Position numbers and translations under genes: made by a program. A stretch of 35,401 bases of DNA from Nitrospirota bacterium. GTDB taxonomy: Bacteria; Nitrospirota; Thermodesulfovibrionia; Thermodesulfovibrionales; UBA1546. Below, in pieces: positions 4,656 through 27,803 of this stretch. The notes beneath the pieces were generated by a model, which saw nothing but the letters and a program-made list of their open reading frames with translations, did not search any database and had not been told where the DNA came from. Positions within the stretch are counted from its first letter, which is position 1; each line of letters opens with the position of its first letter. The stretch is from NCBI GenBank assembly GCA_016195565.1, contig JACPZK010000023.1, positions 1 through 35,401 of the forward strand, written 5' to 3'.

Positions 4656-4683
4656 AGATTGCACCAGCCTTTGTGTAACAATT

Positions 4684-4699
4684 AGCAAAAAACATTCCA
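4684..4699 (-). promoter_or_regulatory. Candidate sigma-54 promoter for the 3990-4655 cytochrome
   Basis: The minus strand reads TGGAAT-GTTTT-TTGCT, with GG and GC separated by exactly 10 bases and a perfect TTGCT -12 box. The predicted start, about 12 bases downstream, leaves a short leader containing the ribosome-binding site before the ATG at 4655. Confidence 0.65.
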
Positions 4700-4740
4700 G
4701 AATAAAGACAAGGCAGCTCAATAACTAAAGGGGGTTTTAA

Positions 4741-6392: not shown

Positions 6393-6904
6393 TTATTGCC
6401 CTTTTCTTCCTTCTTTTTCTCTGTTTTTACTTTTATCTCATTAATGAGCCATTTATTGTCTTTTTTAAGCAAAATATATTCCATCTCGTAATATATGCCT
6501 GAAGCAGGCAGAACTGATTGTTTGGTCTCAAGATTCTTGTACTCGTATATCCAATCCTCTAAAGTTATGACATTTGCACTGTTTCCAGATATGGTAATAT
6601 TTTTGAATTTAATATTTTCAAGCCTGCCGTTCATATACACATTAGAGTCATGCCACGAAGCAATCCAATGATTAAGTTTTTCTCTCTCCTTCTGAACTAA
6701 TATGTCCTTCATTGGCTCCGTATCGCCGGTCTTTGCAGCCTCAATAAGCATATTGTTGTAACTTATGACCGTATCTTTTATTAAAGTTTTGTCCTTTGCC
6801 GTTTCTATTTGAGAGCAGGAAAAAAGACAGGTTAAGGCTAAGGTTATGGTTAAGAAACGAATGATTTTTTTATGAAATTTTTTACATTTATTTTTCTCTT
6901 CCAT
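6389..6904 (-). CDS. Small lipoprotein of unknown function, signal peptide encoded by repeat DNA
   Basis: 171 residues. A basic n-region is followed by FLTITLALTCLFSC, with the lipobox Cys at residue 30. The mature part resembles small exported SnoaL/NTF2-like proteins in length and in its WLINEIK-type ending, but I do not assign a family. The h-region is translated from a hexamer-repeat arm, and the opposite arm supplies the ribosome-binding site in front of the ATG (see 6821-6923). It lies 20 bp after ResC and overlaps the radical SAM gene by four bases, so all are probably cotranscribed. Confidence 0.8.
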   Translation of the reverse strand: MEEKNKCKKFHKKIIRFLTITLALTCLFSCSQIETAKDKTLIKDTVISYNNMLIEAAKTGDTEPMKDILVQKEREKLNHWIASWHDSNVYMNGRLENIKFKNITISGNSANVITLEDWIYEYKNLETKQSVLPASGIYYEMEYILLKKDNKWLINEIKVKTEKKKEEKGNK

Positions 6905-9249: not shown

Positions 9250-11322
9250 TTATGGGTCGGCGCCAGAAATACCACCATGACCGCCGCAATTTGTAGAGCA
9301 GTTGCTTTGAGCATAGGTACCGCTCGTTTTTTTAAACCCTGTAACCTTAAGACTATTGCCATTATAATTGTATGGCGAAAGGTCTGTATTATATCCGATG
9401 AGCCTTGATCTCTTTGAGCCATGCGGCACTGCCATATGGCAATTAACACAGTATGCCCCCCTTGTAGACATTCCAGAATGGGCGCTATTTTTCCAGCTTC
9501 CATCGTATATCGGATGACAGTTCTTGCAGAAAAGGGCTGTATTACTCGTATCAGTTGTATTTAGTGTCCATAGAGTTGAGCCGTCAGACTTTGTAGGCCA
9601 GTACTTACCAGTCCCCTTGAGCATATATTTATAACTTGACCCATGGGGACCTTTAGGGTCTCCTGATGCCTCATTATCAGTGCCGTGGCAGTCAGAGCAG
9701 TACATAGTCTGATTTCCTACATTTGTTGCCCACGGCGAAGACATCTGTGCTGTTGTCAATGGCTTCGGCGCATAAGAGCCTGTCTGGTTATTTAATGTAA
9801 CCACAACAGGATGGGCTGACTTGTTGTTCGGATTGAATTCCATTGCCTGATCCGTTACTGTCACGCCTGATGCAGTTGTGTATGTTGTAATCCCATCACC
9901 GTCCCTCAATGCCCAGTATGAATGGCACTTAAAGCATATCTGGTATTCGTATGTTGAGGACTCCTGCGTAGTAAAGGTTGTAGGCACTGTCCATATTGCC
10001 GGCCATGTAGGTTCAACGCCTGTTACGCCGGTAAGGGCTCCTGATTTTGCTGTCTGGTTGGATTTATTATCAACAGTAGTTGGATACCATGCGGCTGTCC
10101 CCACACGGGCAGGTGTATTCTTTGCCTTGTGCGGATTATGACAGTCAACGCACTCAGCATGTCTTGAGTCCGACCACTGAAGACCCTTGCCGGCAGCCGT
10201 AGGATAGAGAACATCAAGGTTCGTATGAACCCCTGAGATTGTTGTTGTCGGATGCTTGTATGTCCGTGTTATAACTGTCTGTATCCTGTTTGTTGTTGCT
10301 GAAGCGCTTGAGCCGTGACATGCTGTCTCAGTAGTCAAGCCGGATGCTCCCTGAAAACATGTGGTCTCTTCAGCCTGCCTTAATAGATAAGGCGCGCCGA
10401 GGCCTTTGTGCGGCCTGTGGCAGTTCATACAGACAAGGGATGATATGGTGCCTGCATCAAATGTGGTATTAACAGTTGCATCTGAATAAGCATTTGCGGC
10501 GGTCTGGTGGATACTTCCAGTCCAGCCTGTCTTTGAATGGCAGGCGCTGCATGTATTGCTTATCTTGGCTGCAAGGGTGCCTCCAGTGGTATCTCTTAAA
10601 AATTTCTGCTTACTGTATCCAGTATCTATATGGGGATCATGACAAGATGAACACTCAACATAGTTCTTGGCGCTTATACTATAGAGTTTCATAGCCGTAG
10701 ATGTCGGATTCGATATAAGTTCTATGCTCCTTGAGCCTGAACCGAAGGAAATTGTTATTGCCGAGTTATACTCGATGCCAACAGGATGGTGTTTTGTGAG
10801 GTCTGTGCCTATATAGCCGGCCGCAGTTGTGGGCATCTTATCTGCGGTAACGCCTGACATGGCAATTACATTGTTTCCAAGGATTGTTCCTCTTACCAAA
10901 TAAATCGCTCCGACAGCAACCGTGCCGTCATGGCAGCTCAGACATTGCCTTGAAAGCATTCCCGGCTCTCCAGTAGCAGCGCCAAGCCCTGATGGGACTG
11001 TATAACCTGCCCTTGTCAGATAGTCACTGTTATACATGGTATAGCCGGTAGTCGGCATATCATGATTCCACAATGGCCTGCCTGCTTGGGCATTATGGGG
11101 TATGTGGCAAAACACGCATATCTCTGTCTCAGAGCCCGCTGGTATAGGGGCTGGTTGGGTTACCTGGGCTTTTATGGTAGCAGTAGGAGGCGCCGATGTC
11201 GACATATTGTGAACTGTGTTTGAAATCCCAGCATAAGAAAAATAGGCAAAGGTTAAGGTGAAGGCAAGGAAAACCAATAAAATTAAGAAGATATTTGCCT
11301 GTTTCTGAATAAGGCGTTTCAT
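9250..11322 (-). CDS. Large multihaem c-type cytochrome (10 canonical CXXCH plus non-canonical sites)
   Basis: 690 residues with a signal peptide cleaved near SYAG (about residue 32). Canonical motifs in order: CVFCH, CLSCH, CSSCH, CSACH, CMNCH, CVDCH, CFKCH, CSDCH, CKNCH, CVNCH. Between the fifth and sixth is C322-X12-C335-H336, a possible unusual haem site, and near the end C675-STN-C679-GGH. The first 260 residues follow the fold of the smaller cytochromes here (CHIPH, PLWNH, CLSCHDG, CHDPH). The rest is Thr/Ser/Asn-rich, as in surface-exposed cytochromes. A good ribosome-binding site (GAGGGGAG) precedes ATG 11322. It has its own sigma-54 promoter candidate. Likely the outer or extracellular electron carrier of the conduit (inference). 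Confidence 0.9.
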   Translation of the reverse strand: MKRLIQKQANIFLILLVFLAFTLTFAYFSYAGISNTVHNMSTSAPPTATIKAQVTQPAPIPAGSETEICVFCHIPHNAQAGRPLWNHDMPTTGYTMYNSDYLTRAGYTVPSGLGAATGEPGMLSRQCLSCHDGTVAVGAIYLVRGTILGNNVIAMSGVTADKMPTTAAGYIGTDLTKHHPVGIEYNSAITISFGSGSRSIELISNPTSTAMKLYSISAKNYVECSSCHDPHIDTGYSKQKFLRDTTGGTLAAKISNTCSACHSKTGWTGSIHQTAANAYSDATVNTTFDAGTISSLVCMNCHRPHKGLGAPYLLRQAEETTCFQGASGLTTETACHGSSASATTNRIQTVITRTYKHPTTTISGVHTNLDVLYPTAAGKGLQWSDSRHAECVDCHNPHKAKNTPARVGTAAWYPTTVDNKSNQTAKSGALTGVTGVEPTWPAIWTVPTTFTTQESSTYEYQICFKCHSYWALRDGDGITTYTTASGVTVTDQAMEFNPNNKSAHPVVVTLNNQTGSYAPKPLTTAQMSSPWATNVGNQTMYCSDCHGTDNEASGDPKGPHGSSYKYMLKGTGKYWPTKSDGSTLWTLNTTDTSNTALFCKNCHPIYDGSWKNSAHSGMSTRGAYCVNCHMAVPHGSKRSRLIGYNTDLSPYNYNGNSLKVTGFKKTSGTYAQSNCSTNCGGHGGISGADP

Positions 11323-11385: not shown

Positions 11386-11402
11386 AGCAAATTTAGTGCC
11401 AT
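11386..11402 (-). promoter_or_regulatory. Sigma-54 promoter for the large cytochrome
   Basis: The minus strand reads TGGCAC-TAAAT-TTGCT, a full match to the -24/-12 consensus. The predicted leader is about 50 nt before ATG 11322. A GTTCAC inverted repeat begins exactly 10 bp upstream of the -24 T, the same geometry as at 19670-19685. Confidence 0.8.
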
Positions 11403-11410
11403 AATTTTAA

Positions 11411-11472
11411 GTTCACCGTTCACTGTTTACGATTATTTAATTGCTGTGAACCGTGAACCGTTGACTGTGAAC
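11411..11472. repeat. GTTCAC inverted repeat overlapping the end of the NHL gene
   Basis: GTTCACCGTTCACTGTTTAC at 11411-11430 faces GTGAACCGTGAACCG and TGTGAAC at about 11455-11472. The repeat covers the last NHL codons, so its C-terminal tail (SSQSTVHGSQQ) is translated repeat sequence. A longer copy is at 19695-19804. Both abut sigma-54 promoters, so it is either a dispersed repeat or an activator-binding array. Confidence 0.75.
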
Positions 11473-12505
11473 TTTTAATATACCTGAACACCTGCACCCT
11501 CATATTATAAGAATCCGCTACATATATTTTATCATCATTTGAAATGCTTATGCCTCCCGGAAGCGCAAACTCTCCATGCTTCGTCCCCTGTCTGCCGAAC
11601 ACAAGCAGCGGCTGCCCTGACTTATCAAATATAGTAACCGCCTCAAAAAGCGTATCGGTTATGTATATATGGCCTTCGCTGTCGAGGGCAATACCCCTCG
11701 GATTGGCCAAATCTCCTGCAGCATTTCCCCTTCTGCCGAACTTGCCAACAAATTTCCCCTGTTTATCAATTATTTGAACTCTTATATTCATTGTATCGGT
11801 AATGTATAAATTTCCATCTCTTCCAAGAGCAATAAAGGTCGGACGGTTAAACTCGCCGTTGCCGCCGCCGTACCCTCCGATTGTTTTTATATATTTGCCG
11901 TCCAGACTATAAACAAAAATTTTGCTTGCAAGGGTATCAACCACGTAGAGGGCGCCTGACATATTGTCTATAGCGATTCCGGTAGGCCTTTGCATAACAT
12001 TGTCAGAGCCTATTTCTCTCAGAAACTTTCCCATTTTATTAAAAACATATACCCTTCTCATGACAGAGTCTGATATGTAGATATTGCCTTCATTATCCAC
12101 CGCCACGTCTATAGGGGAAGAAAGACGGGTTTTCTTACTTACACCCTCTATAACAAAATATTTGCTATCTTTGGGGTCAAAGACATGAACTGACTGATCG
12201 GCAGTATCTGTAACATATAGCCTGCCGTTGTCGTCAGCAAAAATGCCAAAGGGCTTTATAAGTCCTTCCCTTGACTCACCTGCAACAAACTCCCATACGC
12301 GGCGGAAAAAACCCTTTTTAATCTGAAAATCATCAGGGGTTGTGATGGAATATAAAAATTCTATCCTCGGCTCCCAAGGCGGCGGAGGCCAGACAATATG
12401 CTCCTTTTGGACTTCGCCGGTATTCTTACCCGGTCCCATGCTGATGCTCATAAAAGCAGCCATGATAATGAGGAGATAAAGGGTTTTTCTAAGTTTTGTT
12501 ATCAT
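11420..12505 (-). CDS. NHL-repeat beta-propeller protein, exported
   Basis: 361 residues. A signal peptide (MITKLRKTLYLLIIMAAFM) without a lipobox is followed by the proline-rich WPPPPWEPRIEFL, then about six NHL blades with repeated RPTGIAID, GALYVVDT, GNLYITDT and GHIYITDT signatures. NHL propellers are protein-interaction or scaffold modules and accompany barrel-cytochrome conduits in metal reducers. It is the last gene of the conduit operon and directly abuts the preceding HAMP gene. A paralogue with a lipobox is at 17360-18469. The C-terminal 15 or so residues come from a GTTCAC repeat and are probably dispensable. Confidence 0.88.
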   Translation of the reverse strand: MITKLRKTLYLLIIMAAFMSISMGPGKNTGEVQKEHIVWPPPPWEPRIEFLYSITTPDDFQIKKGFFRRVWEFVAGESREGLIKPFGIFADDNGRLYVTDTADQSVHVFDPKDSKYFVIEGVSKKTRLSSPIDVAVDNEGNIYISDSVMRRVYVFNKMGKFLREIGSDNVMQRPTGIAIDNMSGALYVVDTLASKIFVYSLDGKYIKTIGGYGGGNGEFNRPTFIALGRDGNLYITDTMNIRVQIIDKQGKFVGKFGRRGNAAGDLANPRGIALDSEGHIYITDTLFEAVTIFDKSGQPLLVFGRQGTKHGEFALPGGISISNDDKIYVADSYNMRVQVFRYIKSSQSTVHGSQQLNNRKQ

Positions 12506-16156: not shown

Positions 16157-16256
16157 AAAGACAGGTAGAGGAAGAGGTAAAGGTAGAGGTAGAGTAAAAA
16201 AACAAAAAAATCCTTTGCCTGTCTTTCTTTACCTTTACCTCTTCCTCTACCTGTTT
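16157..16256. repeat. Hexamer-repeat inverted element, non-coding copy
   Basis: The left arm (16160-16195) is runs of AGGTAGAGGAAG/AGGTAA; the right arm (16222-16254) is CTTTACCTTTACCTCTTCC then CTACCTG. The arms pair over about 30 bases around an A/T-rich centre. The element fills the gap between PpiC and the barrel and could fold as an mRNA hairpin. A short frame beginning ATG 16257 overlaps the PpiC stop but soon terminates; I do not call it a gene. Confidence 0.8.
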
Positions 16257-17344
16257 CATTGAATGTACTGTATCTTTGCATTCTCTCTAAGTCTTTTTAT
16301 AAGACTTTCTAATCTGTTTTTCTGCATGGACTCTGTGAGCTCTTTTTTGAGCTTATCTTTTACCTCCTTAAAAGACACCTGTCTTGACGCCCTTTTTTCT
16401 TCGACTTTCAAGATATGAAACCCTATGTCTGTCTCAATAATTTCGCTTAGCTGTCCAACTTTTAACGAAAAAGCTGCCTTTTCTATATCCTGAGGCATCA
16501 TTCCCCTGTGAACAAATCCTACATCGCCTCCCTTTACCCTGCTCATGTCATGAGAATAAGTCTGTGCTATCTGGGCAAAATCCGAGCCTGACTTAATCTT
16601 TGAATAAGCCTCTTTTGCCCTCTCTTTAGCCTTTTTCCTTCCGTCGGGCTCCGAGGGATTTATCTTTACATACACGTATCCAAGCCTTACTGCCTCAGGT
16701 TCCTTGAACTTCTCTGTATTTTTTTTGTAGTATTCTTCAAGGTCGTTATCTGTAAGGGAAACCTTCACCTCTTTTTCAATGAGCTTTTCAACCACAAGGT
16801 TCTTCCTGACCTTCTCCTCAAAAACAGGCATTGTCATACCGCTTTTTTTCAGGGCATCCTTAAATGCCTTAGTAGAGGGATACGATGCCTTGACAGAGCT
16901 TATACTTTTTTCCAGTTCTGAATTATCAACCTTCAGATCCTGTCTCTTTGCCTCAATATAAAAAAGCTCTGCATCTATAAGATTCTCAATGGCCTTTTTT
17001 TCCATCTCTTTCTGTTTTTCAGGGGATATGCTTCGATGATAAAGCTCTTGAGGCGCCAACCTGTTGATTTCCATGTCCAGTTCGGCACGGGTAATCCCGG
17101 CGCCATTTACAAATGCCACAACCTTGCTTTCTTTTAGATCGTCAGCAGCAAAGGCAATTGAATTCAAAATGCAAAATGCAAAAATCAAAATTGATGGAAT
17201 CCCAAATCCAGCGACAAGAGTTGTCATTGCGAGTGAAACGAAGCAATCTCGCCTTTTGCTATGAGATTGCCACGGGCTCCGCCCTCGCAATGACGTCTTC
17301 TCGGTGTAATTTTTGAATTTTAAGTTGTGATTTTGCATTTTCAA
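16256..17344 (-). CDS. PpiC/SurA-type peptidyl-prolyl isomerase, exported
   Basis: A SurA-like N-terminal chaperone helix region (about 75-215) is followed by a parvulin domain (about 220-320) with HDMSRVKGGDVGFVHRG and FSLKVGQLSEIIETDIGFHILKV-type signatures, and a charged C-terminal helix. Such proteins fold outer-membrane barrels or secreted cytochromes, and one sits beside cytochrome-conduit genes in several metal reducers. The first 67 residues are unusual: residues 20-41 are translated from a GTCATTGCGAG inverted repeat, and the hydrophobic signal segment (GIPSILIFAFCILNSIAFA, about 48-66) from an A/T-rich ATGCAAAA repeat. No convincing ribosome-binding site precedes TTG 17344, ATG 17338 or ATG 17227, so the start is uncertain. 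Confidence 0.85.
   Translation of the reverse strand: MKMQNHNLKFKNYTEKTSLRGRSPWQSHSKRRDCFVSLAMTTLVAGFGIPSILIFAFCILNSIAFAADDLKESKVVAFVNGAGITRAELDMEINRLAPQELYHRSISPEKQKEMEKKAIENLIDAELFYIEAKRQDLKVDNSELEKSISSVKASYPSTKAFKDALKKSGMTMPVFEEKVRKNLVVEKLIEKEVKVSLTDNDLEEYYKKNTEKFKEPEAVRLGYVYVKINPSEPDGRKKAKERAKEAYSKIKSGSDFAQIAQTYSHDMSRVKGGDVGFVHRGMMPQDIEKAAFSLKVGQLSEIIETDIGFHILKVEEKRASRQVSFKEVKDKLKKELTESMQKNRLESLIKRLRENAKIQYIQ
17158..17202. repeat. ATGCAAAA-type A/T-rich repeat forming the PpiC signal segment
   Basis: CAAAATGCAAAATGCAAAAA is followed by TCAAAATT. A related sequence in opposite orientation lies at about 17306-17350. On the minus strand it is translated as the hydrophobic core of the PpiC signal peptide. 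Confidence 0.65.
17223..17294. repeat. GTCATTGCGAG inverted-repeat element inside the PpiC reading frame
   Basis: A 72-bp element with perfect 11-bp ends, GTCATTGCGAG and CTCGCAATGAC, plus internal GAAGCAATCTC and GAGATTGCC. It lies in frame within the N-terminal extension of PpiC. Other copies are intergenic. Confidence 0.85.
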
Positions 17345-17359
17345 TTTTAATTTTTTAAT

Positions 17360-18469
17360 TCATTTCAGCAGGTATTCCTTATATTTCTCGGGATTTTCCT
17401 TTTTCCATTTCTCGCTCAGATACTGGAATATCTGCACCCTGTGGTTATAGGAATCCACAATATATACCCTGTCTTTTTCATCCACATATACGCCTGCGGG
17501 GAGCCAGAAATGTCCTGGTTCATGCCCCGGTCCTCCTATGAAAAGAAGGAGTTGCCCCTTGTCATCGAATATCTGAAGGTTGTCAAATGCAGCATCAGCA
17601 ATATAAATATGCCCTTCACTGTCAACTCCGATGCCCTTAGGACGGGTAAATGTCCCTGGAGCATCTCCAATTTGGCCGAATCTTTTTACAAATTTACCGT
17701 CTTTATCAAACACCTGAACCCTAAAATTCTGCGTATCGACTACATAGACATTGTCCGTCTTTCTTTCTACAGCAATATTGGAAGGAAAATTAAATTCACC
17801 GTCTCCATCCCCTCTCTTACCAAAGGCAAACAACGGCTCGCCTTTTGTTGAATACACATGCACCATATGTCCATAACTGTCAACTATATATAGCCTTCCA
17901 AGTTCATTGTTTACAGCTATACCTGCCGGGTTTTTAAATTCATCTTTCTTGCCGAGGGCTATTTTCAGATTTCCGTTCGCATCATAGCCGAATACCCTCT
18001 TCTGTTTTGCATCCGACACAAAGACAATTCCGTCGGAAGTAACAGCCACACCTATAGGAAGGGCAAGCTTTCCCATATCCTTATCCCCCATAAAGGTCAC
18101 TTTCCGCTCCTTCAGGTCAAAGACAAATACAACAGCGCTCCCGGTATCCGTAACATACATCTTATCTCCATAAGCGGCAACCCCATAAGGCTTCCGGAGT
18201 TCAGATATTAACTGCTCCTCTCCAAGAACAAACTCAAGAAAACCCTTTTTCTTAAAATTGCTTTCCCCTTTATAACTGTTCAGATAAACTATTTTTGGCT
18301 CCTCAGGAGGTGAGGGATAGATAAGCTTAACTTCCTTTGTGGGCGCTGCACAGGAAGACAGGAAAAACAACAGGCAAAGGTAGAGGTAGAGATAGAGTTT
18401 TTTACTGCTGTTTTCTTTACCTTTACCTATACCTTTACCTGTTTCTGCCTTTACCTGTCTTTTACTCAT
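17360..18469 (-). CDS. NHL-repeat lipoprotein with a repeat-derived signal peptide
   Basis: 369 residues. The lipobox LSSC places the lipidated Cys at residue 40, then a YPSPPEEPKIVYL segment and about six NHL blades (KPYGVAAYG, KMYVTDTG, GRLYIVDSYG, NVYVVDTQN, GHIYIADA, RVYIVDSYN). It is the lipidated partner of the NHL protein at 11420-12505. The signal peptide is translated repeat: residues 11-18 are GKGIGKGK from the purine arm and residues 25-33 LYLYLYLCL from the pyrimidine arm of one inverted element. ATG 18469 overlaps the RHH gene by eight bases. Likely periplasm-facing outer-membrane lipoprotein scaffold of the conduit (inference). Confidence 0.88.
   Translation of the reverse strand: MSKRQVKAETGKGIGKGKENSSKKLYLYLYLCLLFFLSSCAAPTKEVKLIYPSPPEEPKIVYLNSYKGESNFKKKGFLEFVLGEEQLISELRKPYGVAAYGDKMYVTDTGSAVVFVFDLKERKVTFMGDKDMGKLALPIGVAVTSDGIVFVSDAKQKRVFGYDANGNLKIALGKKDEFKNPAGIAVNNELGRLYIVDSYGHMVHVYSTKGEPLFAFGKRGDGDGEFNFPSNIAVERKTDNVYVVDTQNFRVQVFDKDGKFVKRFGQIGDAPGTFTRPKGIGVDSEGHIYIADAAFDNLQIFDDKGQLLLFIGGPGHEPGHFWLPAGVYVDEKDRVYIVDSYNHRVQIFQYLSEKWKKENPEKYKEYLLK
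18356..18463. repeat. Hexamer-repeat inverted element encoding the NHL lipoprotein signal peptide
   Basis: It begins with GACAGG at 18356. The arm 18371-18397 (AGGTAGAGGTAGAG-type) faces the arm at about 18414-18460 (CTTTACCTTTACCT and TTTACCTG units), ending CCTGTCTTTT. Both arms are in frame with the lipoprotein because the unit is six bases long. All of the signal peptide after residue 3 lies within the element. Confidence 0.85.
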
Positions 18470-18855: not shown

Positions 18856-19569
18856 TTATTTGCCGTGACAGCTGAGGCAAAGTGCGCTGGATGCATTGCT
18901 TAGTCTCAAAAATAATGCTCCTGCAGTTGTTCCCTGCCCGGTTGTGTCTCCAGTATTCGCATGGGGATCATGACAGCTTGAGCATTCTACCTTGCCGTTC
19001 CTGAGGAGGGCTGCTAATGTCGAAGTACCAAATACAGTCGTGGTTGCCTTCAGGCTTGCCGTTCCAGCAGTGTAGGTGATTGAAACCGGATGATCATCTG
19101 CAAGGGTTTGCCCGATATTGGTTGATGTCCCAGTCATTAGGAGCGCTGTTCCCAGAGGGGTTGCACCGAATGCTACGTTAGTACCGGCAGTAACAACTCC
19201 ACCTGAACCAGCCTGGTTAACTAAGGAGTTGATAGCGTTTACGCCATCATGGCAGCTCAGACATGCCTTGGTAATACCATTTGGTGTTGCATCAGGAGTT
19301 GTACCTGCTATGGTTGTTCCATACATTGTGTATGAACCTGTTGGAGTCGCCTTGTTCCATAGCGGGGCGCCTGTAAAGCCTGTGTTAGCAAAGTGAGGGG
19401 TATGACAGTATACGCAGATTTCGTCGTTCTGCTGGCCTGCGCTTGCCTTGACTGTGCCACTACCGGTGTTGGATAGATTATGCTTTGTGGCTGATATGCC
19501 TGCCAGCGCTGCGCCTGCGCTTAAAAGCGCTATTGCTACTACCATTACTACTAAAATCCTACTTTTCAT
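18856..19569 (-). CDS. Tetraheme c-type cytochrome, probably abundant; candidate filament-type subunit
   Basis: 237 residues from ATG 19569, chosen because a perfect AAGGAGGTGA lies just upstream; the longer frame from 19674 overlaps the promoter. The signal peptide is cleaved near GAALA-GIS, leaving about 210 residues. Four CXXCH motifs: CVYCH, CLSCH, CSSCH, CLSCH. Signatures SATKHNLSNTG, CVYCHTPHFANTG, APLWNK, CLSCHDGVNA and CHDPHANTG link it to the pentahaem proteins. Gly/Ala/Thr-rich, low in charge. It has its own sigma-54 promoter, best-in-window ribosome-binding site and strong terminator, consistent with high expression. Size, haem count and neighbourhood resemble OmcE-type tetraheme filament cytochromes, but this is inference without structural evidence. 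Confidence 0.9.
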   Translation of the reverse strand: MKSRILVVMVVAIALLSAGAALAGISATKHNLSNTGSGTVKASAGQQNDEICVYCHTPHFANTGFTGAPLWNKATPTGSYTMYGTTIAGTTPDATPNGITKACLSCHDGVNAINSLVNQAGSGGVVTAGTNVAFGATPLGTALLMTGTSTNIGQTLADDHPVSITYTAGTASLKATTTVFGTSTLAALLRNGKVECSSCHDPHANTGDTTGQGTTAGALFLRLSNASSALCLSCHGK

Positions 19570-19669
19570 TATATTCACCTCCTTTTGTTTGGATTTGAAG
19601 CCTATTACTTTTTCAGTCATTATCTCATCACCCCCTATCATTAATTTCGAACATCTTGATAATAGAATA

Positions 19670-19685
19670 AGCAAGCCTTATGCCA
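19670..19685 (-). promoter_or_regulatory. Sigma-54 promoter for the tetraheme cytochrome
   Basis: The minus strand reads TGGCAT-AAGGC-TTGCT, one mismatch from consensus and correct 10-base GG-GC spacing. The predicted leader is about 90 nt and carries a second ribosome-binding-like GGGGGTGATGAG before the true start. A GTTCAC array begins 10 bp upstream of the -24 T. Confidence 0.75.
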
Positions 19686-19694
19686 GATGGAAAA

Positions 19695-19804
19695 GTTCAC
19701 TGTTCTCTGTTCACTGTTCACGGTAAGCCTTTGATTATTAATTATTTTTTATCTCAACTTTTTTTTACTATAAACTGTGAACCGTGAACGGTGAACTGTG
19801 AACT
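19695..19804. repeat. GTTCAC inverted-repeat array between divergent cytochrome promoters
   Basis: Three GTTC(A/T)C-type words from 19695 (GTTCACTGTTC, TGTTCACTGTTCACGG) face GTGAACCGTGAACGGTGAAC and TGTGAACTT at 19777-19804 around an A/T-rich centre. It lies between the minus-strand tetraheme promoter and the plus-strand promoter at 20052. It may be an enhancer array for the NtrC-type activator or a mobile repeat. Confidence 0.75.
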
Positions 19805-19883
19805 TATTTGTTGCGTAATATCACGCAGTAAGTGAGGAAAATAACGGTTCTTTCGTAAAAAAGTTGAAAATTATACAAATGAC

Positions 19884-20051: not shown

Positions 20052-20067
20052 TGGTAAGATTTTTGCA
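20052..20067 (+). promoter_or_regulatory. Sigma-54 promoter for the small tetraheme cytochrome
   Basis: TGGTAA-GATTT-TTGCA, with perfect TTGCA and exactly 10 bases between GG and GC. The predicted start near 20078 leaves about 14 nt including the AAGGG ribosome-binding site before ATG 20092. It is the only plus-strand example. Confidence 0.7.
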
Positions 20068-20091: not shown

Positions 20092-20433
20092 ATGAAATAT
20101 ATTGTTTTTGCTTTAATCATTATATCATCAACACTGATATCTCACCAGATATACGCGCTCCAGACAAAAGAATGCACAGCATGTCATATATCGTCTAACG
20201 GAGGCCCTGTAAAAAAACCGCTCACCGAGTTATGCGTCGGCTGTCATAGAGAGCGCATAGAAACAGGAGAGCACAAGGTGGATATAATTCCAAGGTATCA
20301 GGTTCCACAAAATCTTCCTCTCACTAAAGACGGCAAAATCACATGTATAACATGCCACGACCAGCACTCCGCAGAATATATGATGCTGCGATTTGAGACC
20401 ATGGTTCTGTGCAACAAATGCCATAAAAAATAA
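20092..20433 (+). CDS. Small tetraheme c-type cytochrome, periplasmic
   Basis: 113 residues: a signal peptide (MKYIVFALIIISSTLISHQIYA) and about 91 mature residues holding CTACH, CVGCH, CITCH and CNKCH. Spacing fits two paired CXXCH units. The small size, soluble character and C-terminal CHKK suit a periplasmic electron shuttle between inner and outer membrane carriers. It is the only plus-strand gene in the cytochrome region. It ends one base before the convergent stop of the sigma-54 activator gene and starts directly behind a -24/-12 promoter. Confidence 0.88.
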   Translation: MKYIVFALIIISSTLISHQIYALQTKECTACHISSNGGPVKKPLTELCVGCHRERIETGEHKVDIIPRYQVPQNLPLTKDGKITCITCHDQHSAEYMMLRFETMVLCNKCHKK

Positions 20434-20434
20434 G

Positions 20435-21829
20435 TCAGAGCAGTCCGAATTTCTGCATCTTATATCTGAGGGCATCCCTCGATATGCCGAGCAGTCTTGC
20501 AGCCCTTGTCTGATTTCCGTTAACCATCTGCAATGCCTTAATAACCAAATCCTTTTCCATATTCTTAAGAGAAAGACCCTCTGGAGGGATTCTAAGCATT
20601 GTCTTTTCTTCTTCAGCAGGCGCTTCCGGCTCTGTCTGAAATGAATCGGCATAGTCGACTATCTCTGAAGGTATATTCTCAGGATATATTATATCCGTAT
20701 CTTCTAAAATACAGATTCGCTCTATAACATTTTTAAGCTCCCTCGTATTGCCGTGCCACGGATAATCAATAAGCAGTTTTTCGGCTTCAGGGGAGATGCC
20801 TTTTACATTCTTTTTGAACTCCTTGTTAAACAGTTTCATATAGTGCATTGCAAGCGGTATGATGTCCTCTTTTCTTTCCCGCAGCGGCGGTATGAATATG
20901 GGAATAACTTTAAGCCTATAATAAAGGTCAGCCCTGAAGCTGCCGTCCTTAACAGCCTTCTCGAGGTTTTTGTTCGTGGCGGCTATAATCCTTACATTTA
21001 CGCTTATATCTTTCAGCCCGCCGACTCTTTTAAATGTCCTATCCTCTATAACCCTCAGCAGCTTTGCCTGCGAGGCAGGCTTCATATCTCCTATCTCATC
21101 AAGATAAATTGTGCCTCCGCTGGCAAACTCAAAGAGCCCTTTTTTGGAGGCCTTTGCATCTGTAAATGCCCCTTTTTCGTAGCCGAATAATTCGCTTTCT
21201 ATAAGCATTTCAGGTATGGCGGTAGATGTCACTTCAACAAACAACTCGGAGGCCTTTGGACTATGATAGTGAATAGCCCTTGCTATAAGATTTTTCCCCG
21301 TGCCGCTCTCGCCCTGAATTAGGATTATATTGGCATCGATATCTGCAACCTTCTTTGCAAGGGAGATCACATCCCTCATAGCTTTTGAAATGCCTATTAT
21401 ATTATTAAAGCTGTATTTATCATACTGCTCTTCCCTGAGATAAATGACTTCCCTTTTCAGATTTATAGTCTCCAGCGCCTTTTTAATGAGGACAGATATT
21501 CTATTCAAATCAAAGGGTTTCTCCACAAAATCGTAGGCCCCAAGCTTTATAGCAGAAACCGCTGTCTCTATATCCCCGTGCGCAGTTATAATAACCACGA
21601 TAACTTCCTTGTTTATCTTTCTTATGGCCTCAAGGGTCTCAAGGCCACTGATGCCTGGCAGATTTATGTCGAGGAGAATAATATCAGGGATTTCTGTTCT
21701 GAACACTTCAAGTCCGTCTTCTCCTGATTCGGCAGTAAAAACCTCATAGCCCTCTTTTTCGAGATGTTGCTTAAGGGACCATGTTATAAACTTTTCATCA
21801 TCGACAACAAGGATCTTAGCCTGAACCAA
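20435..21829 (-). CDS. NtrC-type sigma-54-dependent response regulator
   Basis: Receiver domain with Asp acceptor in IILLDINLPG (about residue 54); AAA+ domain with Walker A GESGTGK (about 173), Walker B TIYLDEIGD and arginine-rich sensor region; C-terminal Fis-type helix-turn-helix (NGNQTRAARLLGISRDALRYKMQ). The sigma-54 contact loop is GAFTDA in place of GAFTGA. TTG 21829 is chosen over ATG 21850 because AGAGGAGGT lies directly before the TTG, inside the longer frame. It follows the kinase gene with a repeat between, forming a two-component pair. Sigma-54 promoter candidates at five cytochrome genes make this its likely regulon (inference). Confidence 0.93.
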   Translation of the reverse strand: MVQAKILVVDDEKFITWSLKQHLEKEGYEVFTAESGEDGLEVFRTEIPDIILLDINLPGISGLETLEAIRKINKEVIVVIITAHGDIETAVSAIKLGAYDFVEKPFDLNRISVLIKKALETINLKREVIYLREEQYDKYSFNNIIGISKAMRDVISLAKKVADIDANIILIQGESGTGKNLIARAIHYHSPKASELFVEVTSTAIPEMLIESELFGYEKGAFTDAKASKKGLFEFASGGTIYLDEIGDMKPASQAKLLRVIEDRTFKRVGGLKDISVNVRIIAATNKNLEKAVKDGSFRADLYYRLKVIPIFIPPLRERKEDIIPLAMHYMKLFNKEFKKNVKGISPEAEKLLIDYPWHGNTRELKNVIERICILEDTDIIYPENIPSEIVDYADSFQTEPEAPAEEEKTMLRIPPEGLSLKNMEKDLVIKALQMVNGNQTRAARLLGISRDALRYKMQKFGLL

Positions 21830-21870
21830 AAGACCTCCTCTTTCGTTCATGATTCATCGTTGATGGCTCA

Positions 21871-21955: not shown

Positions 21956-23464
21956 CTATGAACCTTTTATCGGTAAGTATACCGTAAATATGCTTCCCTT
22001 ACCAACTTTGCTTTCAACGGTTATCTCGCCGCCGTGTTCCTGAACAATCTTCCGGCTTATGGATAATCCAAGACCAGTGCCTTTGGTCTTCTTGGTGAAG
22101 AACGGTTCAAAGATGTGTTGCAAATCCTCAGACGATATGCCCTTACCTGTATCCTGCAACTTAACTGCTAATACCTTTTCGCCCTCTATGGGTCTCTTTA
22201 TCGAATTCTCTACCTCCTGACGGTTCTTCTTTGAGGCGAAGATTGTCAGAACTCCGCCGTTTGGCATGGACTGTATGGCATTTATTACTATATTTAAAAA
22301 TACCTGCTGCATCTGATCGTGATCCATCAATATATCAGGCATGTCTTCCGAGACATTGTTGTTTATGACGACATTGTGCTTTTTGGCTTCTGGATAGACA
22401 AAGAAAAGTGCCTTTTCTAAAATATTGCTTATTTTATCAGGCAAAAACTGCAAAGGCTTTGGCTTTGCATAACTCAAGAGATCCTTCACTATCCTGTCGA
22501 GCCTGTTTACCTGATTTAAAACCTCGGTAATAATAGGTTTTCTGCTGTCGTCCTCGCTAAGCTCGGAATGAAATACCTGAACCGCACAGCTTATCCCTGC
22601 CAGAGGGTTCTTTATCTCATGGGCAATCCCTGAAATAACCTCGCCGAGGGAGGCAAGTTTTGCAGCCCTTTCCATCTGCTGTATATGGCATACTTCTAAA
22701 TCCCTTTTTGCCGATTCAAGAGACTTAACCATTTTATTAAAAACACTCGCGAGATAACCAAACTCATCTTTACCGCCTTCTTTTGTTCTCGCTGATAAAT
22801 CTCCTGTCTCCACCTTTTTCATTACTCCCATGAGGTCCCTTAGTGGCCTATTTATAAGCCTTTCTCCGCCAACCATGAAAATTAAACTTATCATGACAAA
22901 GCCTATAACAAGGCCTGCAAAATGTCTGTATGTCAATTCTTTGATAGACTGCTGTGCTACCGCGAGGGAAACCTCCACATCAAGAACTCCCCGTATCTTT
23001 TCCTTTGGAGAATGACACCTATAGCATTCAGGCCTGTTCTCTATGGGTATGACCCTGGTGGCAAATATCTCACCCTCTTTTTTTATTACAAAGGGAGACA
23101 CTTCCTGCCTTATAAACCTATCCCAGTCTTTTTCATATATCTTCTTTCCCATATCTTCTCTTTCATTTGAAACAATAATACGACCGCTTACCGGATGGAA
23201 TATCCTCACCTCTTTCAATTCAGGATTATTTCTTGTAAAATCCTCTATCTGACTCTGGAGCTCTTTCCATTTGTTTTCAAGCATAAGGATCATTATGCTC
23301 TGTTTGATTACCTCGGACAACAGAACAGCCTTTTCCTTTTGCGCATCAATCAGCCTTGCCTTTGTATCCTCTATGTCCGACCAGACGATCAGTGATGTAA
23401 CTACAAAGACCGATAAAAGGGAGAGGAACAACAACTTAATTCTGACACTGCCTAATAGCTTCAT
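21956..23464 (-). CDS. Sensor histidine kinase with a periplasmic c-haem motif
   Basis: 502 residues. TM1 about 10-28; periplasmic sensor domain about 30-180; TM2 about 182-199; HAMP about 200-252; HisKA with GIAHEIKNPL (His282); HATPase with NIVINAIQ, DTGKGIS and GTGLGLSIS. The sensor domain holds C147-Y-R-C150-H151 in the context NRPECYRCHSPKEKIRGVLDVEVSL, a covalent c-haem site known in some redox/gas-sensing kinases. The periplasmic haem likely reports redox state or a ligand such as NO or CO (inference). The gene starts one base after the octahaem cytochrome stop and pairs with the NtrC-type regulator. Confidence 0.92.
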   Translation of the reverse strand: MKLLGSVRIKLLFLSLLSVFVVTSLIVWSDIEDTKARLIDAQKEKAVLLSEVIKQSIMILMLENKWKELQSQIEDFTRNNPELKEVRIFHPVSGRIIVSNEREDMGKKIYEKDWDRFIRQEVSPFVIKKEGEIFATRVIPIENRPECYRCHSPKEKIRGVLDVEVSLAVAQQSIKELTYRHFAGLVIGFVMISLIFMVGGERLINRPLRDLMGVMKKVETGDLSARTKEGGKDEFGYLASVFNKMVKSLESAKRDLEVCHIQQMERAAKLASLGEVISGIAHEIKNPLAGISCAVQVFHSELSEDDSRKPIITEVLNQVNRLDRIVKDLLSYAKPKPLQFLPDKISNILEKALFFVYPEAKKHNVVINNNVSEDMPDILMDHDQMQQVFLNIVINAIQSMPNGGVLTIFASKKNRQEVENSIKRPIEGEKVLAVKLQDTGKGISSEDLQHIFEPFFTKKTKGTGLGLSISRKIVQEHGGEITVESKVGKGSIFTVYLPIKGS

Positions 23465-24451
23465 CTATTTTTTATGACACATCTGGCACAAGCTGTTAGG
23501 ACTGATTTCATCGTTGGCAAAAAGCGACCTTGAATTAGAGGCATGGGGATTATGACAGCTTGCACACGAAAGCTCCTTCCCGGGACGAAGTGGATCGGGC
23601 CTGCCCTTTGTAGGATGTGTAGACCCAAAAACAAATCCAGCAATAACATGCCTGCCTGAGGCCCTGTCTTCATGGCATGTAACACACAAATCCCATGAGG
23701 GTTTTTTGAGCCGTGAAATATTGTTTGAGGCATGGGGGTTGTGGCATATGCTGCAGTTTCCGGTTGCAGTTGGCCCGTGCCAATACTTTTTGGGTGTCCA
23801 CTCCTCTTTTTTCTCTTCATGGCAGACAAAACATAATTCTTTCTCAGGCTGCCGTGTAATATATTTCACTGGTTTTGAATTTTGCTCATGGCAGGACAGA
23901 CAATCCCATCTTGCAGCAGGCCCATGGACATAGCCATAGTCTGTTATCATCTTATGGCATGGATAACAGACAGAATCGCCGGGCTTCTGCGGCTTCAAAT
24001 CCTTTCCGGATGTCTTCATTTCATGGCATGACAGACATGCCTTTTCGTTATTTTCCTTATGAAACGGCTTTTTCTGGAATTCCGGAGGAGCGATCCTGAA
24101 TTCCATGGATATGTCTGACCTGTAAAAAACAATTATTTTTTTGGATTCAACAACCCTGCCGTTTTCCACTGCATTCACAACTATTTCATTAGGGCCGAAA
24201 TTCAGCTTCACTGTTTTGCAGAGATATTCTTTTCCCCTGATATCGGGTATATTAAAGACCTCGTCTTTATTCCTGGCAATGGTGACTGCATATATATTGC
24301 CGTTCAATTTTATAACAATGGGACTTAGTTCTCCTTCTACCATACTGTAGTCCACAGGCCTGATTACAGAAAATCTATCGGGATTAGCCGCTGCAATAGC
24401 TGTAATAATAAGCATTAAAAAAAGACAAGATATTATTATGAGTCTCTTCAC
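23465..24451 (-). CDS. Octahaem c-type cytochrome with N-terminal beta-rich domain
   Basis: A signal peptide (VKRLIIISCLFLMLIITAIAAA), then about 95 residues without cysteines that look like a beta-sandwich, then eight CXXCH motifs: CLSCH, CYPCH, CLSCH, CFVCH, CSICH, CVTCH, CASCH, CQMCH. Repeated YVHGPAA, YWHGPTATGNC and CHNPHASN signatures define the doubled-CXXCH family. GTG 24451 is preferred, with GGGGGA upstream; the ATG at 24487 has no ribosome-binding site and adds a non-signal extension. It directly precedes the haem-motif kinase gene, so it may be the kinase's electron donor or simply an operon partner (inference). Confidence 0.87.
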   Translation of the reverse strand: MKRLIIISCLFLMLIITAIAAANPDRFSVIRPVDYSMVEGELSPIVIKLNGNIYAVTIARNKDEVFNIPDIRGKEYLCKTVKLNFGPNEIVVNAVENGRVVESKKIIVFYRSDISMEFRIAPPEFQKKPFHKENNEKACLSCHEMKTSGKDLKPQKPGDSVCYPCHKMITDYGYVHGPAARWDCLSCHEQNSKPVKYITRQPEKELCFVCHEEKKEEWTPKKYWHGPTATGNCSICHNPHASNNISRLKKPSWDLCVTCHEDRASGRHVIAGFVFGSTHPTKGRPDPLRPGKELSCASCHNPHASNSRSLFANDEISPNSLCQMCHKK

Positions 24452-24545
24452 AAATCCCCCATTTATAATACCATATTCACCATGCATTGTTTGTTATTGT
24501 CACTTGCCTGAATCCAGATATAGAACGAGAAAAGCGATTAATGTC

Positions 24546-24667: not shown

Positions 24668-25795
24668 TTATTCTTTTATCTTCAAAATAAGTTCAAGGGC
24701 CTTTTTGTAATCAGATGCAGCCTCTTTCAGTATCTTGCTGTTTTCATAAGTCTCTCCCCTCAGAGAGTATATAACGGGGTCATAAGGGTTCAGGGAAAGG
24801 GCGCTCTCAAAGGCCTTTAGAGATTCATTCATCTGCCCGTTTTTTCCAAGGGCGTAAGCATGATAATAATATGCAGGGGTGTATGAATTCTTTTTTATCG
24901 CCGCACCAAGTATCCCGACAGCCTCGGCTGTCCTGCTTGTCTTCGTAAGAAAATAACCGAGTTCGGTCATGACAGCAACATTATCAGGCTCTACAGATAA
25001 TGCCTTTCTCAATATCTCTTCCGCCTCCACCCTCTTGCCGTCAATCTCGTACAGTTTTGCAAGCTCTACATACGGAAGCATGTACTTAGGGTCCTTCTCT
25101 ATCGCCTTCTTAAAAAAAGGATACGCCATCTCGTATCTCTTTTTCTTCACTAATCCCCTCGCAAGATTTGTATCAGCGATGGCGTCATAACGGGGCATGT
25201 ACTTAGGTCCCATCTTTTTCTTGGGCTGTTCTCCTGCAAGAACAAGCAGATAATCAAACATATCCTCCGTGCCTACAAGCGGAAGTCCCGGAAGCTCATA
25301 TGCTATCTTGCCCTCCGTTATAACTATAGTGGATGGCAGGGCGATTACGCTGTATTCATGGAATGTCTTTAAACCCTTATCCAGAACCATCGGAAATGTA
25401 ATATTAAGCTCTTTTATAAGGCTCTTTATTTTTTCAACATCTCCGTTAGCAAGAGTTTGGTTATCCGCATTAATCCCGATTACCTGTATGCCCTTGTCTT
25501 TATATTTTTTGTAAAACTCTTCGAATCTCTTGAGGGCATTAGGGGACTTGGCGCTCCAGGTAGACCAGAACACGACAACAACAGCCTTCTTCTGCGAATA
25601 CTGCGAGAGAATCATATCCTTTCCTTCTACGTCTTTAAGCGAGAAGCCAGGAGCCTGTGCCCCTGTCTGGAGCAAGGCCTGAGCAGTTGCGGTATAAGCA
25701 AAAAGGTAAAGGTAAAGGAAGAAAAATAATAAATAATAAACTACTCCTATACCTCTACCTTTGCCTTTACCTGCTTTTTCGTTAATATCCCTCAT
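24668..25795 (-). CDS. TlpA-like thioredoxin fold fused to TPR repeats; active-site cysteines replaced
   Basis: 375 residues. A signal peptide ends TATAQA (cleavage about residue 40). A TlpA/AhpC-type thioredoxin fold (about 45-190) has FWSTWSAKSP where redox-active members have WCxxC: both cysteines are Ser (81 and 84), while the cis-Pro loop ALPST remains. TPR-type repeats fill 205-372. It is unlikely to be a disulfide reductase and is more likely a binding or chaperone protein. The signal peptide is repeat-encoded: GKGKGRGIG (9-17) and LYLYLF (27-32) come from opposite arms of one element. ATG 25795 overlaps the TPR gene stop (ATGA). Confidence 0.87.
   Translation of the reverse strand: MRDINEKAGKGKGRGIGVVYYLLFFFLYLYLFAYTATAQALLQTGAQAPGFSLKDVEGKDMILSQYSQKKAVVVVFWSTWSAKSPNALKRFEEFYKKYKDKGIQVIGINADNQTLANGDVEKIKSLIKELNITFPMVLDKGLKTFHEYSVIALPSTIVITEGKIAYELPGLPLVGTEDMFDYLLVLAGEQPKKKMGPKYMPRYDAIADTNLARGLVKKKRYEMAYPFFKKAIEKDPKYMLPYVELAKLYEIDGKRVEAEEILRKALSVEPDNVAVMTELGYFLTKTSRTAEAVGILGAAIKKNSYTPAYYYHAYALGKNGQMNESLKAFESALSLNPYDPVIYSLRGETYENSKILKEAASDYKKALELILKIKE
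25697..25776. repeat. Hexamer-repeat inverted element encoding the TlpA-TPR signal peptide
   Basis: The arm at 25701-25720 (AAAAGGTAAAGGTAAAGG) faces the arm at 25745-25774 (CCTATACCTCTACC, TTTGCCTTTACCTGC). On the minus strand the first-read arm encodes the Gly-Lys/Gly-Arg n-region and the second the Leu-Tyr h-region. Confidence 0.85.
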
Positions 25796-26418
25796 TCCTT
25801 TCCCACCCTTACCTTATGAGTCTTTATCCCTTCCTTAAAATGTACAATAGCCTTTTCATAATCATTGAGTTTTTCATAGACAAGCCCCAGCGCATAATGG
25901 GTCATTGAAGGATAAGGATTTAATATCAAGGCATCCTTAAGAATAGCCTCCGCTCCTTTTAAATCGCCCTTCTTCAATAGGGCAAGGCCTATGCCTGTCT
26001 TGGAGGTGCGCATCATGGGATTTATCTTCAGGGCGGAGTTGAAGGCGCTAATCGCATCGTCCAACTGTCCTTTTTTTAAGAGTATATAACCGAGATGGTC
26101 ATGGGCATCTGGATAATTTGGGTCTGCCTTAATAGCCTCTTTGACTACATCCATTGCCCTGTCTATATTGCCATCTTCAAAGAGCTTAACAGACTCCCTG
26201 TAAAAGGCTTTAGCCTTATCGCCCTCTACTTGCTGAGCAAAAACAACAGGCGGGAAAAAGATGAAAAGGCAAAAAAGACAGAGTAAAAAAAACTTGAGAA
26301 AACCGTCATTCCTGCGAAAGCAGGAATCTATGTTTCTGCTTTTTTTCTGGATTCCAGCTTGCGGGGGAATGACATTTTCATTATTTTTTGGGCTAAGTCT
26401 CCGGAATCTCTGCTCCAT
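25792..26418 (-). CDS. TPR-repeat protein, exported
   Basis: 208 residues. After a hydrophobic segment (FFLLCLFCLFIFF, about 43-55) and a likely cleavage site VVFAQQ come about four TPR units (residues 68-205; AFYRESVKLFEDGNIDRAM, YPDAHDHLGYILLKKG, AISAFNSALKINP). Residues about 16-39 (NVIPPQAGIQ, SCFRRNDG) are translated GTCATTCC-type repeat lying between the start codon and the signal segment. No alternative start lies after the repeat. ACAGGTAAG before ATG 26418, a hexamer-element end, serves as ribosome-binding site. It sits between the large cytochrome and TlpA-TPR, consistent with a cytochrome-assembly or scaffold role (inference). Confidence 0.82.
   Translation of the reverse strand: MEQRFRRLSPKNNENVIPPQAGIQKKSRNIDSCFRRNDGFLKFFLLCLFCLFIFFPPVVFAQQVEGDKAKAFYRESVKLFEDGNIDRAMDVVKEAIKADPNYPDAHDHLGYILLKKGQLDDAISAFNSALKINPMMRTSKTGIGLALLKKGDLKGAEAILKDALILNPYPSMTHYALGLVYEKLNDYEKAIVHFKEGIKTHKVRVGKE
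26304..26375. repeat. GTCATTCC inverted repeat inside the TPR reading frame
   Basis: GTCATTCCTGCGAAAGCAGG at 26304 faces GGATTCCAGCTTGCGGG and GGAATGAC ending about 26374. It is read in frame as part of the TPR protein N-terminus. A relative lies at 19884-19985. Confidence 0.8.
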
Positions 26419-26423
26419 AAATC

Positions 26424-27803
26424 TTACCTGTTTTTAACTGGGTTTGTTCTATCATAACTAAATGTCTGATGACATCCTGGTGAACAGGAGCCGCCTGTAT
26501 TGGTCTTTTTATGGTTTATTGGCAGTCCCCATGCCCCGAATGGAACTGCATCCCTTATGTGCTTCGGATTATTTGTGGCATGTACATCGTGGCAGGCCCT
26601 GCAGGTACGTCCTTTGTCTGGCTTGTTTACATGTTTGAAATGAAGATTCTGCTCACCATTTCTGAATCCAGTTAATGTTGTTGTCTTGGGATCGATCACC
26701 AATGTCTTCTCGTGGCAGTTGAAGCATAGTTCGTAGTTCTTTAAATCAAAGGGCGCATAGAATACAGGAGGGAAGTATTTTCTGAGTATCCTGAAGTTAT
26801 CGGAACCATGGGTATTATGGCAGGCCGAACAATCTTTCTGTTTAATTGGACCGTGCCAGTCATGGTTTTTGGCCAAATATGTTTTCATGTCAAGAATCTT
26901 TCCGCTTGGTGTATCAAGCGATTTGTCATGGCATGTCAGACAGACATCCATAGGCGCTTTTACCAATTGCTTTACATAATCAGAAACATGGGGGTCGTGG
27001 CATACAAGACAGTGCCTCTCTGTATCCAGTCCTCCATGTTTCGTTTTCACATTCGCAACCCATTCCTTCTTATCCTTATGACATCCAAAACAGAGGTCCC
27101 TTGTTCCATCCACCTTTAAGTTATATTTATAGTCCCCTGCATGCGGGCTGTGGCAGTTGACGCATTTTTCACCTGCCGGTTTATGAACAAATTTTTTCCC
27201 TTTCAATGCCTCTGCCTTATCAGTATGGCATGTAAAGCATACGTCATTGTCTGCAGCCTTCAGCATCTTCGGAAAGTCCGTCTGATGCGGATTGTGGCAC
27301 ATAGAGCAGCCGCCTACTGCAACAGGGCCGTGTACAAACTTGCCGGAGGCAATCTTTTTGTCATGACACATAAAACAGAGGTTCTGCCCGTCCGCGCGAA
27401 GCTGGAACTTGTACGGAGACTGATGAGGGCTATGGCAGTTTGTGCAGTTGCCTTCTTTCACAGGAGGATGGACAGTTCTCATTGTATCTACCCTGTCATG
27501 ACATTTGTAACAGAGTTGTCCTACATCTTTTATGGGCGCAAATTTATTGCTTGCCGGCGATGATCTGTGTTTATCTGCCTCCCCTTTATGGCATACATGG
27601 CATTCACCAACAGCTACAGGGCCATGTACAAACTTGTCCTTTCCCATCTTGCTGTGGCATTTATCCGTGACGCAAGAATCTTTGGGTTGGGCATTAACAG
27701 TTCCTTGCTGTCCTGATAGATAATAAGAAAAAATAAAAACAGAGATGATAAGACAGAAAACGAAAAAAAACCCTCTCTTCCACCTGACTCCCATGTCCCC
27801 CAT
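26424..27803 (-). CDS. Large doubled-CXXCH cytochrome, 13 canonical and 2 non-canonical haem sites
   Basis: 459 residues. A signal anchor or peptide (about 10-30) is followed by CX4CH (C44-VTDK-C49-H50), then 13 canonical motifs: CHVCH, CYKCH, CTNCH, CFMCH, CSMCH, CFTCH, CVNCH, CFGCH, CLVCH, CLTCH, CSACH, CFNCH, CRACH. It ends with CX3CH (C440-SPG-C444-H445) and the family ending FSYDR. Repeated KFVHGPVAVG and CHSPH/CHNPH words mark the paired-CXXCH family. AGGAGGG lies five bases before ATG 27803. First gene of the operon running through the TPR proteins and octahaem cytochrome to the two-component pair. Likely a periplasmic or surface electron store or wire (inference). Confidence 0.9.
   Translation of the reverse strand: MGDMGVRWKRGFFFVFCLIISVFIFSYYLSGQQGTVNAQPKDSCVTDKCHSKMGKDKFVHGPVAVGECHVCHKGEADKHRSSPASNKFAPIKDVGQLCYKCHDRVDTMRTVHPPVKEGNCTNCHSPHQSPYKFQLRADGQNLCFMCHDKKIASGKFVHGPVAVGGCSMCHNPHQTDFPKMLKAADNDVCFTCHTDKAEALKGKKFVHKPAGEKCVNCHSPHAGDYKYNLKVDGTRDLCFGCHKDKKEWVANVKTKHGGLDTERHCLVCHDPHVSDYVKQLVKAPMDVCLTCHDKSLDTPSGKILDMKTYLAKNHDWHGPIKQKDCSACHNTHGSDNFRILRKYFPPVFYAPFDLKNYELCFNCHEKTLVIDPKTTTLTGFRNGEQNLHFKHVNKPDKGRTCRACHDVHATNNPKHIRDAVPFGAWGLPINHKKTNTGGSCSPGCHQTFSYDRTNPVKNR

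Follow-up and report, generated by a model that had tools for sequence, protein, structure and literature searches.

The DNA analysed, hereafter called the window, is a stretch of 35,401 nt from a Nitrospirota bacterium (UBA1546; assembly GCA_016195565.1, contig JACPZK010000023.1, positions 1 to 35,401). Its features are given in Table 1. The histidine kinase that it encodes shows the domain order TM1, c-haem Cache sensor, TM2, HAMP, HisKA and HATPase. The two membrane spans (residues ~9-29 and ~180-200 according to hydropathy) flank the CYRCH motif, which therefore sits in the loop between them; here, ORF translation and hydropathy agree with the original prediction. Two of the four Cys of the kinase belong to CYRCH and the others, Cys259 and Cys293, lie in the cytoplasmic part. 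With the composition of the Cys-poor proteins of the window, the probability of a chance CXXCH in a stretch of 155 aa is about 1e-4. By the known role of the HisKA His, His282 is presumably the residue that is phosphorylated.

The kinase gene belongs to a gene run that begins with a 13-CXXCH cytochrome, and its ATG (at 23464) abuts the stop codon of the 8-CXXCH cytochrome gene. The kinase had been placed at the end of a cytochrome operon: its membership in a run of cytochrome genes holds, but the last gene is that of the response regulator. The pairing with a sigma-54 activator was borne out, as the activator gene comes after the kinase gene, and the System II haem ligation machinery that had been invoked is encoded within the window by ccsA and resB. 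The segment 9250-18469, with its cytochromes, NHL proteins, prolyl isomerase and 558-aa protein, resembles an outer-membrane porin-cytochrome conduit. A fragment with RHS repeats (113-904) is found at the left contig edge.

Table 1. Genes, protein features and candidate regulatory sites of the window; positions preceded by an L number belong to other loci.
Feature	Position	Strand	Remark
Sensor histidine kinase, 502 aa, ATG start	21956..23464	-	ORF and Pfam scan
Periplasmic sensor domain, residues 28-182, predicted single Cache fold	22919..23383	-	
CYRCH, predicted covalent haem-binding motif, residues 147-151	23012..23026	-	
Met61 codon, predicted distal haem ligand	23282..23284	-	alignment to Met60 of GSU0935
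His282 codon, HisKA, predicted phosphorylated His	22619..22621	-	
Multihaem cytochrome, 13 CXXCH	26424..27803	-	first gene of the kinase-containing run
TPR protein	25792-26418	-	upstream of kinase
Thioredoxin-fold/TPR protein	24668-25795	-	upstream of kinase
Multihaem cytochrome, 8 CXXCH	23465..24487	-	directly upstream of kinase
NtrC-type response regulator (receiver, sigma-54 AAA+, Fis HTH)	20435..21850	-	Pfam
Small cytochrome, 4 CXXCH	20092..20433	+	predicted target
Cytochrome, 4 CXXCH	18856..19674	-	predicted target; true start probably ATG near 19569
Cytochrome, 10 CXXCH	9250..11322	-	predicted target
ResB, System II cytochrome c biogenesis	7751-9103	-	
CcsA, System II cytochrome c biogenesis	6925-7764	-	
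B12-binding radical SAM gene	4923-6392		beyond weak sigma-54 like site
5-haem cytochrome	3990-4721		beyond weak sigma-54 like site
NHL proteins	11420-12505, 17360-18469		
Prolyl isomerase	16256-17344		
558-aa protein	14465-16141		no Pfam match
Perfect sigma-54 promoter TGGCACTAAATTTGCT	11386..11401	-	before 10-haem cytochrome
Sigma-54 type promoter TGGCATAAGGCTTGCT	19670..19685	-	before 4-haem cytochrome 18856-19674
Weaker sigma-54 type promoter TGGTAAGATTTTTGCA	20052..20067	+	before small 4-haem cytochrome
Weak sigma-54 like site	4684..4699	-	before 5-haem cytochrome 3990-4721; recurs in 1 of 2 relatives
Weak sigma-54 like site	6468..6483	-	before 4923-6392
Palindrome TGCGTRATATYACGCA, candidate response-regulator binding site	19812..19827	.	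between divergent sigma-54 sites
Kinases with CXXCH plus CX4CH	L092:4950-6626, L094:4860-6635	+, +	acidobacterial
Sensor of c-haem Cache kind with two haem motifs	L038:1060-2691	+	same genome as window
ResB with insertion (examples)	L053:10260-11816, L054:1549-3111, L055:10508-12073, L077:2254-3813	-, +, -, +	

A predicted haem-binding sensor

Orthologues of the kinase were sought in 61 genomes (its own included) by a full-length match at E <= 1e-60, which takes no account of the motif. This yielded 29 kinases including that of the window, and all of them (29/29, the 29th being L008, also shown as L049) have CX2CH at the aligned place with constant spacing. The conservation on which the original prediction was staked is hence seen throughout. 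When the full-length kinases were aligned (28 sequences, L065 being omitted as a near copy of L064), residues M61, G94, S99, N143, C147, C150 and H151 of the sensor were found to be invariant. A wider scan of GTDB genomes gave 80 kinase loci. CXXCH is present in 14/14 of those whose alignment reaches the sensor and in two (L084 and L104) of the other 66, whose alignment is confined to later parts. Met occupies column 61 in 15 of 16 aligned sensors (window plus 15 wider-scan loci), the exception being the divergent CXXCH kinase L084, which has Val. The Nitrospirota kinase L090, located beside ResB-CcsA, has lost the sensor between its spans.

Some relatives appear to carry additional haem motifs. 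Two acidobacterial kinases combine CXXCH with CX4CH at the aligned place. The genome of the window encodes six more proteins of the c-haem Cache type (L030, L031, L032, L033, L037 and L038). Two of them are kinases and two are GGDEF proteins, one of the latter with two motifs; the others are a HAMP-only protein and a chemoreceptor. Two haem motifs are found in the sensor of L038.

A profile built from 28 sensors was compared with all PDB sequences. Only 3b42 (GSU0935, E 1.2e-7) and 3b47 (GSU0582, E 2.6e-6) were significant, the third match having an E of 0.34. The invariant Met61 aligns with residue 26 of the 3b42 chain; as the first Cys of the motif is residue 106 of this chain and Cys140 of the full protein, residue 26 corresponds to Met60. 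The Pfam family PF21563, which takes its name from sensors of this type, matches 26/28 sensors at E 0.1 (best 3.1e-11), and its score for the window sensor (18.1-20.9 bits) is below the curated cut-off of 27. PF11845 does not match the window sensor at E 0.1. The AlphaFold model of the sensor (15 sequences; pLDDT 92.3, pTM 0.84) is a single Cache fold in which strands 105-115 and 130-139 flank a short helix (118-122) where CXXCH starts. Foldseek retrieved 3b42 and 3b47 among 20 matches with E <= 0.001, with an rmsd of 14-15 A and about 18% identity; such a large rmsd would be expected for helix-swapped crystal structures set against an unswapped model. The top structural scores were obtained with haem-free Cache domains, such as that of WalK (Z 15.6, rmsd 2.3 over 135 residues, 16% identity). 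Tll0287 (5b82) is not among the structural matches listed, which is no evidence against kinship. As WalK-type domains are closest in structure and GSU0935/GSU0582 closest in sequence, the fold indicates a Cache domain and the sequence a c-haem Cache domain.

We infer from these sequence comparisons that the sensor almost certainly carries a covalently bound haem c outside the membrane. Ligation of the iron by His151 on the proximal side and by Met61 on the distal side is predicted as probable. Alternatively, the Cys pair might form a disulfide or a metal site, so that the kinase would sense thiols or metal, as could be argued from the score below the Pfam cut-off and the haem-free WalK-type folds. 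This is very unlikely, given that His151 is as invariant as both Cys, that the CX2CH spacing is kept in 29/29 kinases, that Met61 is invariant and that the only significant sequence relatives in the PDB are haem proteins. Furthermore, the window shows all signs of the production of c-type cytochromes.

Sigma-54 sites and the response regulator

The first scan for sigma-54 promoters relied on the generally known consensus, written as TGGCAC-N5-TTGCW with up to two mismatches. It gave 28 sites in the window versus 19 expected, a number reached by one of 100 shuffles. A consensus of the form tGGcacg/tTGCt is reported in PMC4641369. Among 17 genes with comparable upstream regions, the sites kept under a strict rule were those at 11386 and 19670. 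The same rule applied to 300 shuffled decoy patterns left no site for 294 of them, one site for five and two sites for a single one. The 11386 site is perfect in 4/4 syntenic genomes, though the DNA around it differs, and is one of the two perfect sigma-54 sites of the 2.3-Mb genome. The 19670 site has one mismatch in 4/4 syntenic genomes and its spacer varies. The weaker 20052 site is identical in two of three syntenic relatives and differs by one base in the third. As for the weak site at 6468, it is found at an equal distance in one of two relatives and further upstream in the other.

Between the sites 19670 and 20052 lies the palindrome TGCGTAATATCACGCA (19812..19827), to which the response regulator may bind and which is kept in 4/4 genomes with at most one mismatch. 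At up to two mismatches, it is the sole match in each of three relatives, and one further, weaker match occurs in the genome of the window. Heptad arrays of GTTCACNGTTCAC (11411-11458 and 19709-19803) were also considered as a regulator binding site and rejected. In the window, they occur next to the two sigma-54 sites kept under the strict rule and nowhere else, and they face each other. The heptad has 64 matches in its own genome (41 forward, 23 reverse) and is dispersed through related genomes too, and the relatives have no such array at the promoter of the 10-haem cytochrome; these arrays are therefore dispersed repeats.

The response regulator contains a receiver (motif PDIILLD), a Sigma54_activat AAA+ domain and a Fis HTH. 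Sigma-54 activators usually read FTGA within the GAFTGA loop, which touches sigma-54. All 27 regulators, from the window and its orthologues, have FTDA instead (GAFTDA in 25, GSFTDA in one and FAFTDA in one). PMC4641369 lists GAFTDA as one of the variants that should be functional in Desulfovibrio vulgaris. The genome has a single rpoN gene and encodes 16 sigma-54 activators, so that another one could act at the cytochrome promoters; only one of them is encoded within the window, which makes its assignment to the promoters of the cluster likely.

Taken together, it is fairly probable that the kinase and its regulator govern the cytochrome genes of the cluster. The proposed feedback loop on cytochrome expression is upheld insofar as conserved sigma-54 promoters precede cytochrome genes of the cluster, but not as a direct feedback of the system on its own operon. 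No sigma-54 site is listed before the operon of the window that starts at 27803 and holds the kinase. Likewise, a sigma-54 promoter before the ResB operon of distant relatives was rejected, as 0/22 scanned loci have one (L056 and L063, with a short upstream stretch, were omitted). Neither result supports direct autoregulation.

Linkage to haem attachment genes in relatives

In distant relatives, resB and ccsA lie immediately upstream of the kinase gene and in the same direction in 24/24 loci with visible upstream DNA (L047-L070; L046 ends at a contig end). The response regulator gene comes right after that of the kinase in 23/24 of them (it is missing in L047) and is itself followed by a gene for a lone receiver in 20 distant loci. 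In the wider scan, the linkage with ResB-CcsA was found in six of the 14 loci whose alignment reaches the sensor (L077, L081, L082, L083, L087 and L097), all titled Nitrospirae or Nitrospiraceae.

The ResB proteins of these relatives display a peculiarity: 15 of 24 aligned sequences contain 45 extra residues, inserted into the loop that follows TM3. Ten were scanned with Pfam, and the insertion matches HTH_8 in seven at E 0.05 (five above the cut-off, best 1.3e-7). HTH_8 is the HTH of Fis type that NtrC regulators have. In the model of the L077 ResB, the insertion forms three helices (222-237, 242-249 and 253-263; pLDDT about 84-89). By the known topology of ResB, this loop would be outside the cell membrane. 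It is odd that a haem lyase should contain a DNA-binding fold, in an operon that has a gene for an NtrC-type regulator as well.

The cluster of the window is syntenic with that of three genomes of another family (G026, G037 and G046), which share the kinase, the regulator, the cytochromes, the NHL proteins, the prolyl isomerase, the 558-aa protein and ResB-CcsA (identity of 69-82% for the kinase and 88-89% for the regulator). Both the kinase and the 13-haem cytochrome are absent from 7/7 genomes of the same genus, two of which are only 66 and 74% complete. As five of these seven genomes have the flanking UbiA-like gene (83-92% identity), the contig belongs to this genome. For the cluster (3990-27803), loss from small genomes fits as well as a gain by horizontal transfer. 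From the ResB-CcsA linkage, the synteny and the sigma-54 promoters, a haem-c circuit that drives the cytochrome genes is thus well supported.

Possible signals and known systems

The system may be viewed as a two-component pathway leading from a c-haem Cache redox sensor, through an NtrC-type activator, to sigma-54 promoters of cytochrome genes, a reading to which we give a probability of about 60%. The haem c borne by Cys147 and Cys150, with His151 as proximal and Met61 as distal ligand, would sense redox conditions on the outer side of the inner membrane. By analogy with GSU0935 and GSU0582, Met61 would bind the reduced iron and be released on oxidation; this ligand change would shift the long N-terminal helix that carries Met61, and the movement would be relayed through the membrane and HAMP to the kinase. 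The kinase would then phosphorylate the NtrC-type activator, which would switch on the sigma-54 promoters of the multihaem cytochrome genes of the cluster. In GSU0935 and GSU0582, a redox-linked ligand change is reported, with midpoint potentials of -251 and -156 mV, and Met60 is described as the distal ligand in one subunit of GSU0935 (PMC8396549). That redox is the main signal of the kinase stands at even odds.

The same haem-c sensor could rather respond to a gas, above all NO, that would bind the haem, break the bond to Met61 or His151 and so switch the kinase; the cytochrome genes of the cluster would then respond to nitrosative stress or nitrogen oxides. GSU0582 and GSU0935 are reported to bind NO in either redox state and CO in the reduced state, Met60 being displaced (PMC8396549), and a HAMP-linked sCache_heme protein of Pseudomonas azotoformans releases NO with a koff of 6e-4 per s and gives no stable complex with O2 (preprint PMC12889525). 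However, the sixth ligand of this NO-binding relative is described in the preprint as water rather than Met. Moreover, the neighbourhood of the kinase consists of cytochromes and haem attachment genes, and no NO-handling gene was found among 18 window proteins scanned with Pfam. NO as the signal is a possibility, although a rather unlikely one.

Another hypothesis is that the sensor, as a substrate of CcsBA, gauges cytochrome c maturation: it would stay apo when haem or CcsBA capacity is lacking, the signal being its apo or holo state. It is the ResB-CcsA-kinase order, found in 24/24 assessable distant loci, that suggests it, and the substrate motif CXXCH is also the most conserved part of the sensor. 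Cytochrome-rich surroundings are nevertheless common for redox genes, the ResB operon lacks a sigma-54 promoter for its own activator (0/22), and the invariance of Met61 points to a functional ligand switch rather than mere occupancy, so that this hypothesis is improbable. It is equally doubtful that haem supply or the capacity for attachment, together with the redox state, sets cytochrome expression through the sigma-54 promoters.

How expression is matched to redox state and haem supply in bacteria rich in multihaem cytochromes is poorly known. Here, a c-haem sensor kinase, its activator, haem attachment genes and conserved sigma-54 promoters before cytochrome genes occur together, which makes a control of cytochrome expression by redox, NO or haem supply directly testable; Met61, His151, the promoters named above and the candidate binding site provide handles. 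In the published literature searched, neither the fixed order ResB-CcsA-kinase-activator nor the sigma-54 promoters were found. A search combining haem-sensor kinase, multihaem cytochrome and Nitrospirota returned nothing, and, among the papers listed on haem or cytochrome c biogenesis with two-component systems or sigma-54, the titles and abstract openings contain nothing on the ResB-CcsA linkage.

Sensor domains with haem c are already known in kinases (PMC8396549, PMC12889525). For Geobacter sulfurreducens, PMC8396549 mentions eight annotated two-component proteins among the c-haem signal transducers (GSU0283, GSU0303, GSU0356, GSU0599, GSU1302, GSU2314, GSU2816 and GSU2916); they are likened to the window protein, by description only, as signal transducers with a c-haem motif. 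The sCache_heme family, related to DUF3365/Tll0287 (PF11845), is characterized by a CXXCH on an added short helix, occurs in kinases, MCPs and GGDEF proteins and is described as abundant in Nitrospirota (Deshpande et al. 2026, preprint PMC12889525). The data sets of this preprint count the GSU0935 branch within the family. The window sensor belongs to this branch, unlike Tll0287 proper (PF11845), which has His/Cys ligation: the Cys axial ligand of the Tll0287 type is absent from the sensor, Cys259 and Cys293 both being cytoplasmic. The likeness to the extracellular Cache domain of WalK/YycG, which is no CXXCH family, is one of fold only. The closest counterparts are GSU0935 and GSU0582 of G. 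sulfurreducens (PDB 3b42 and 3b47; PF21563), which share with the kinase a periplasmic Cache/PAS-like domain between two spans, a single CXXCH, a Met at the place of the distal ligand and a HAMP after TM2. These two proteins are chemoreceptors with an MCP output, whereas the window protein is a histidine kinase with an NtrC-type partner.
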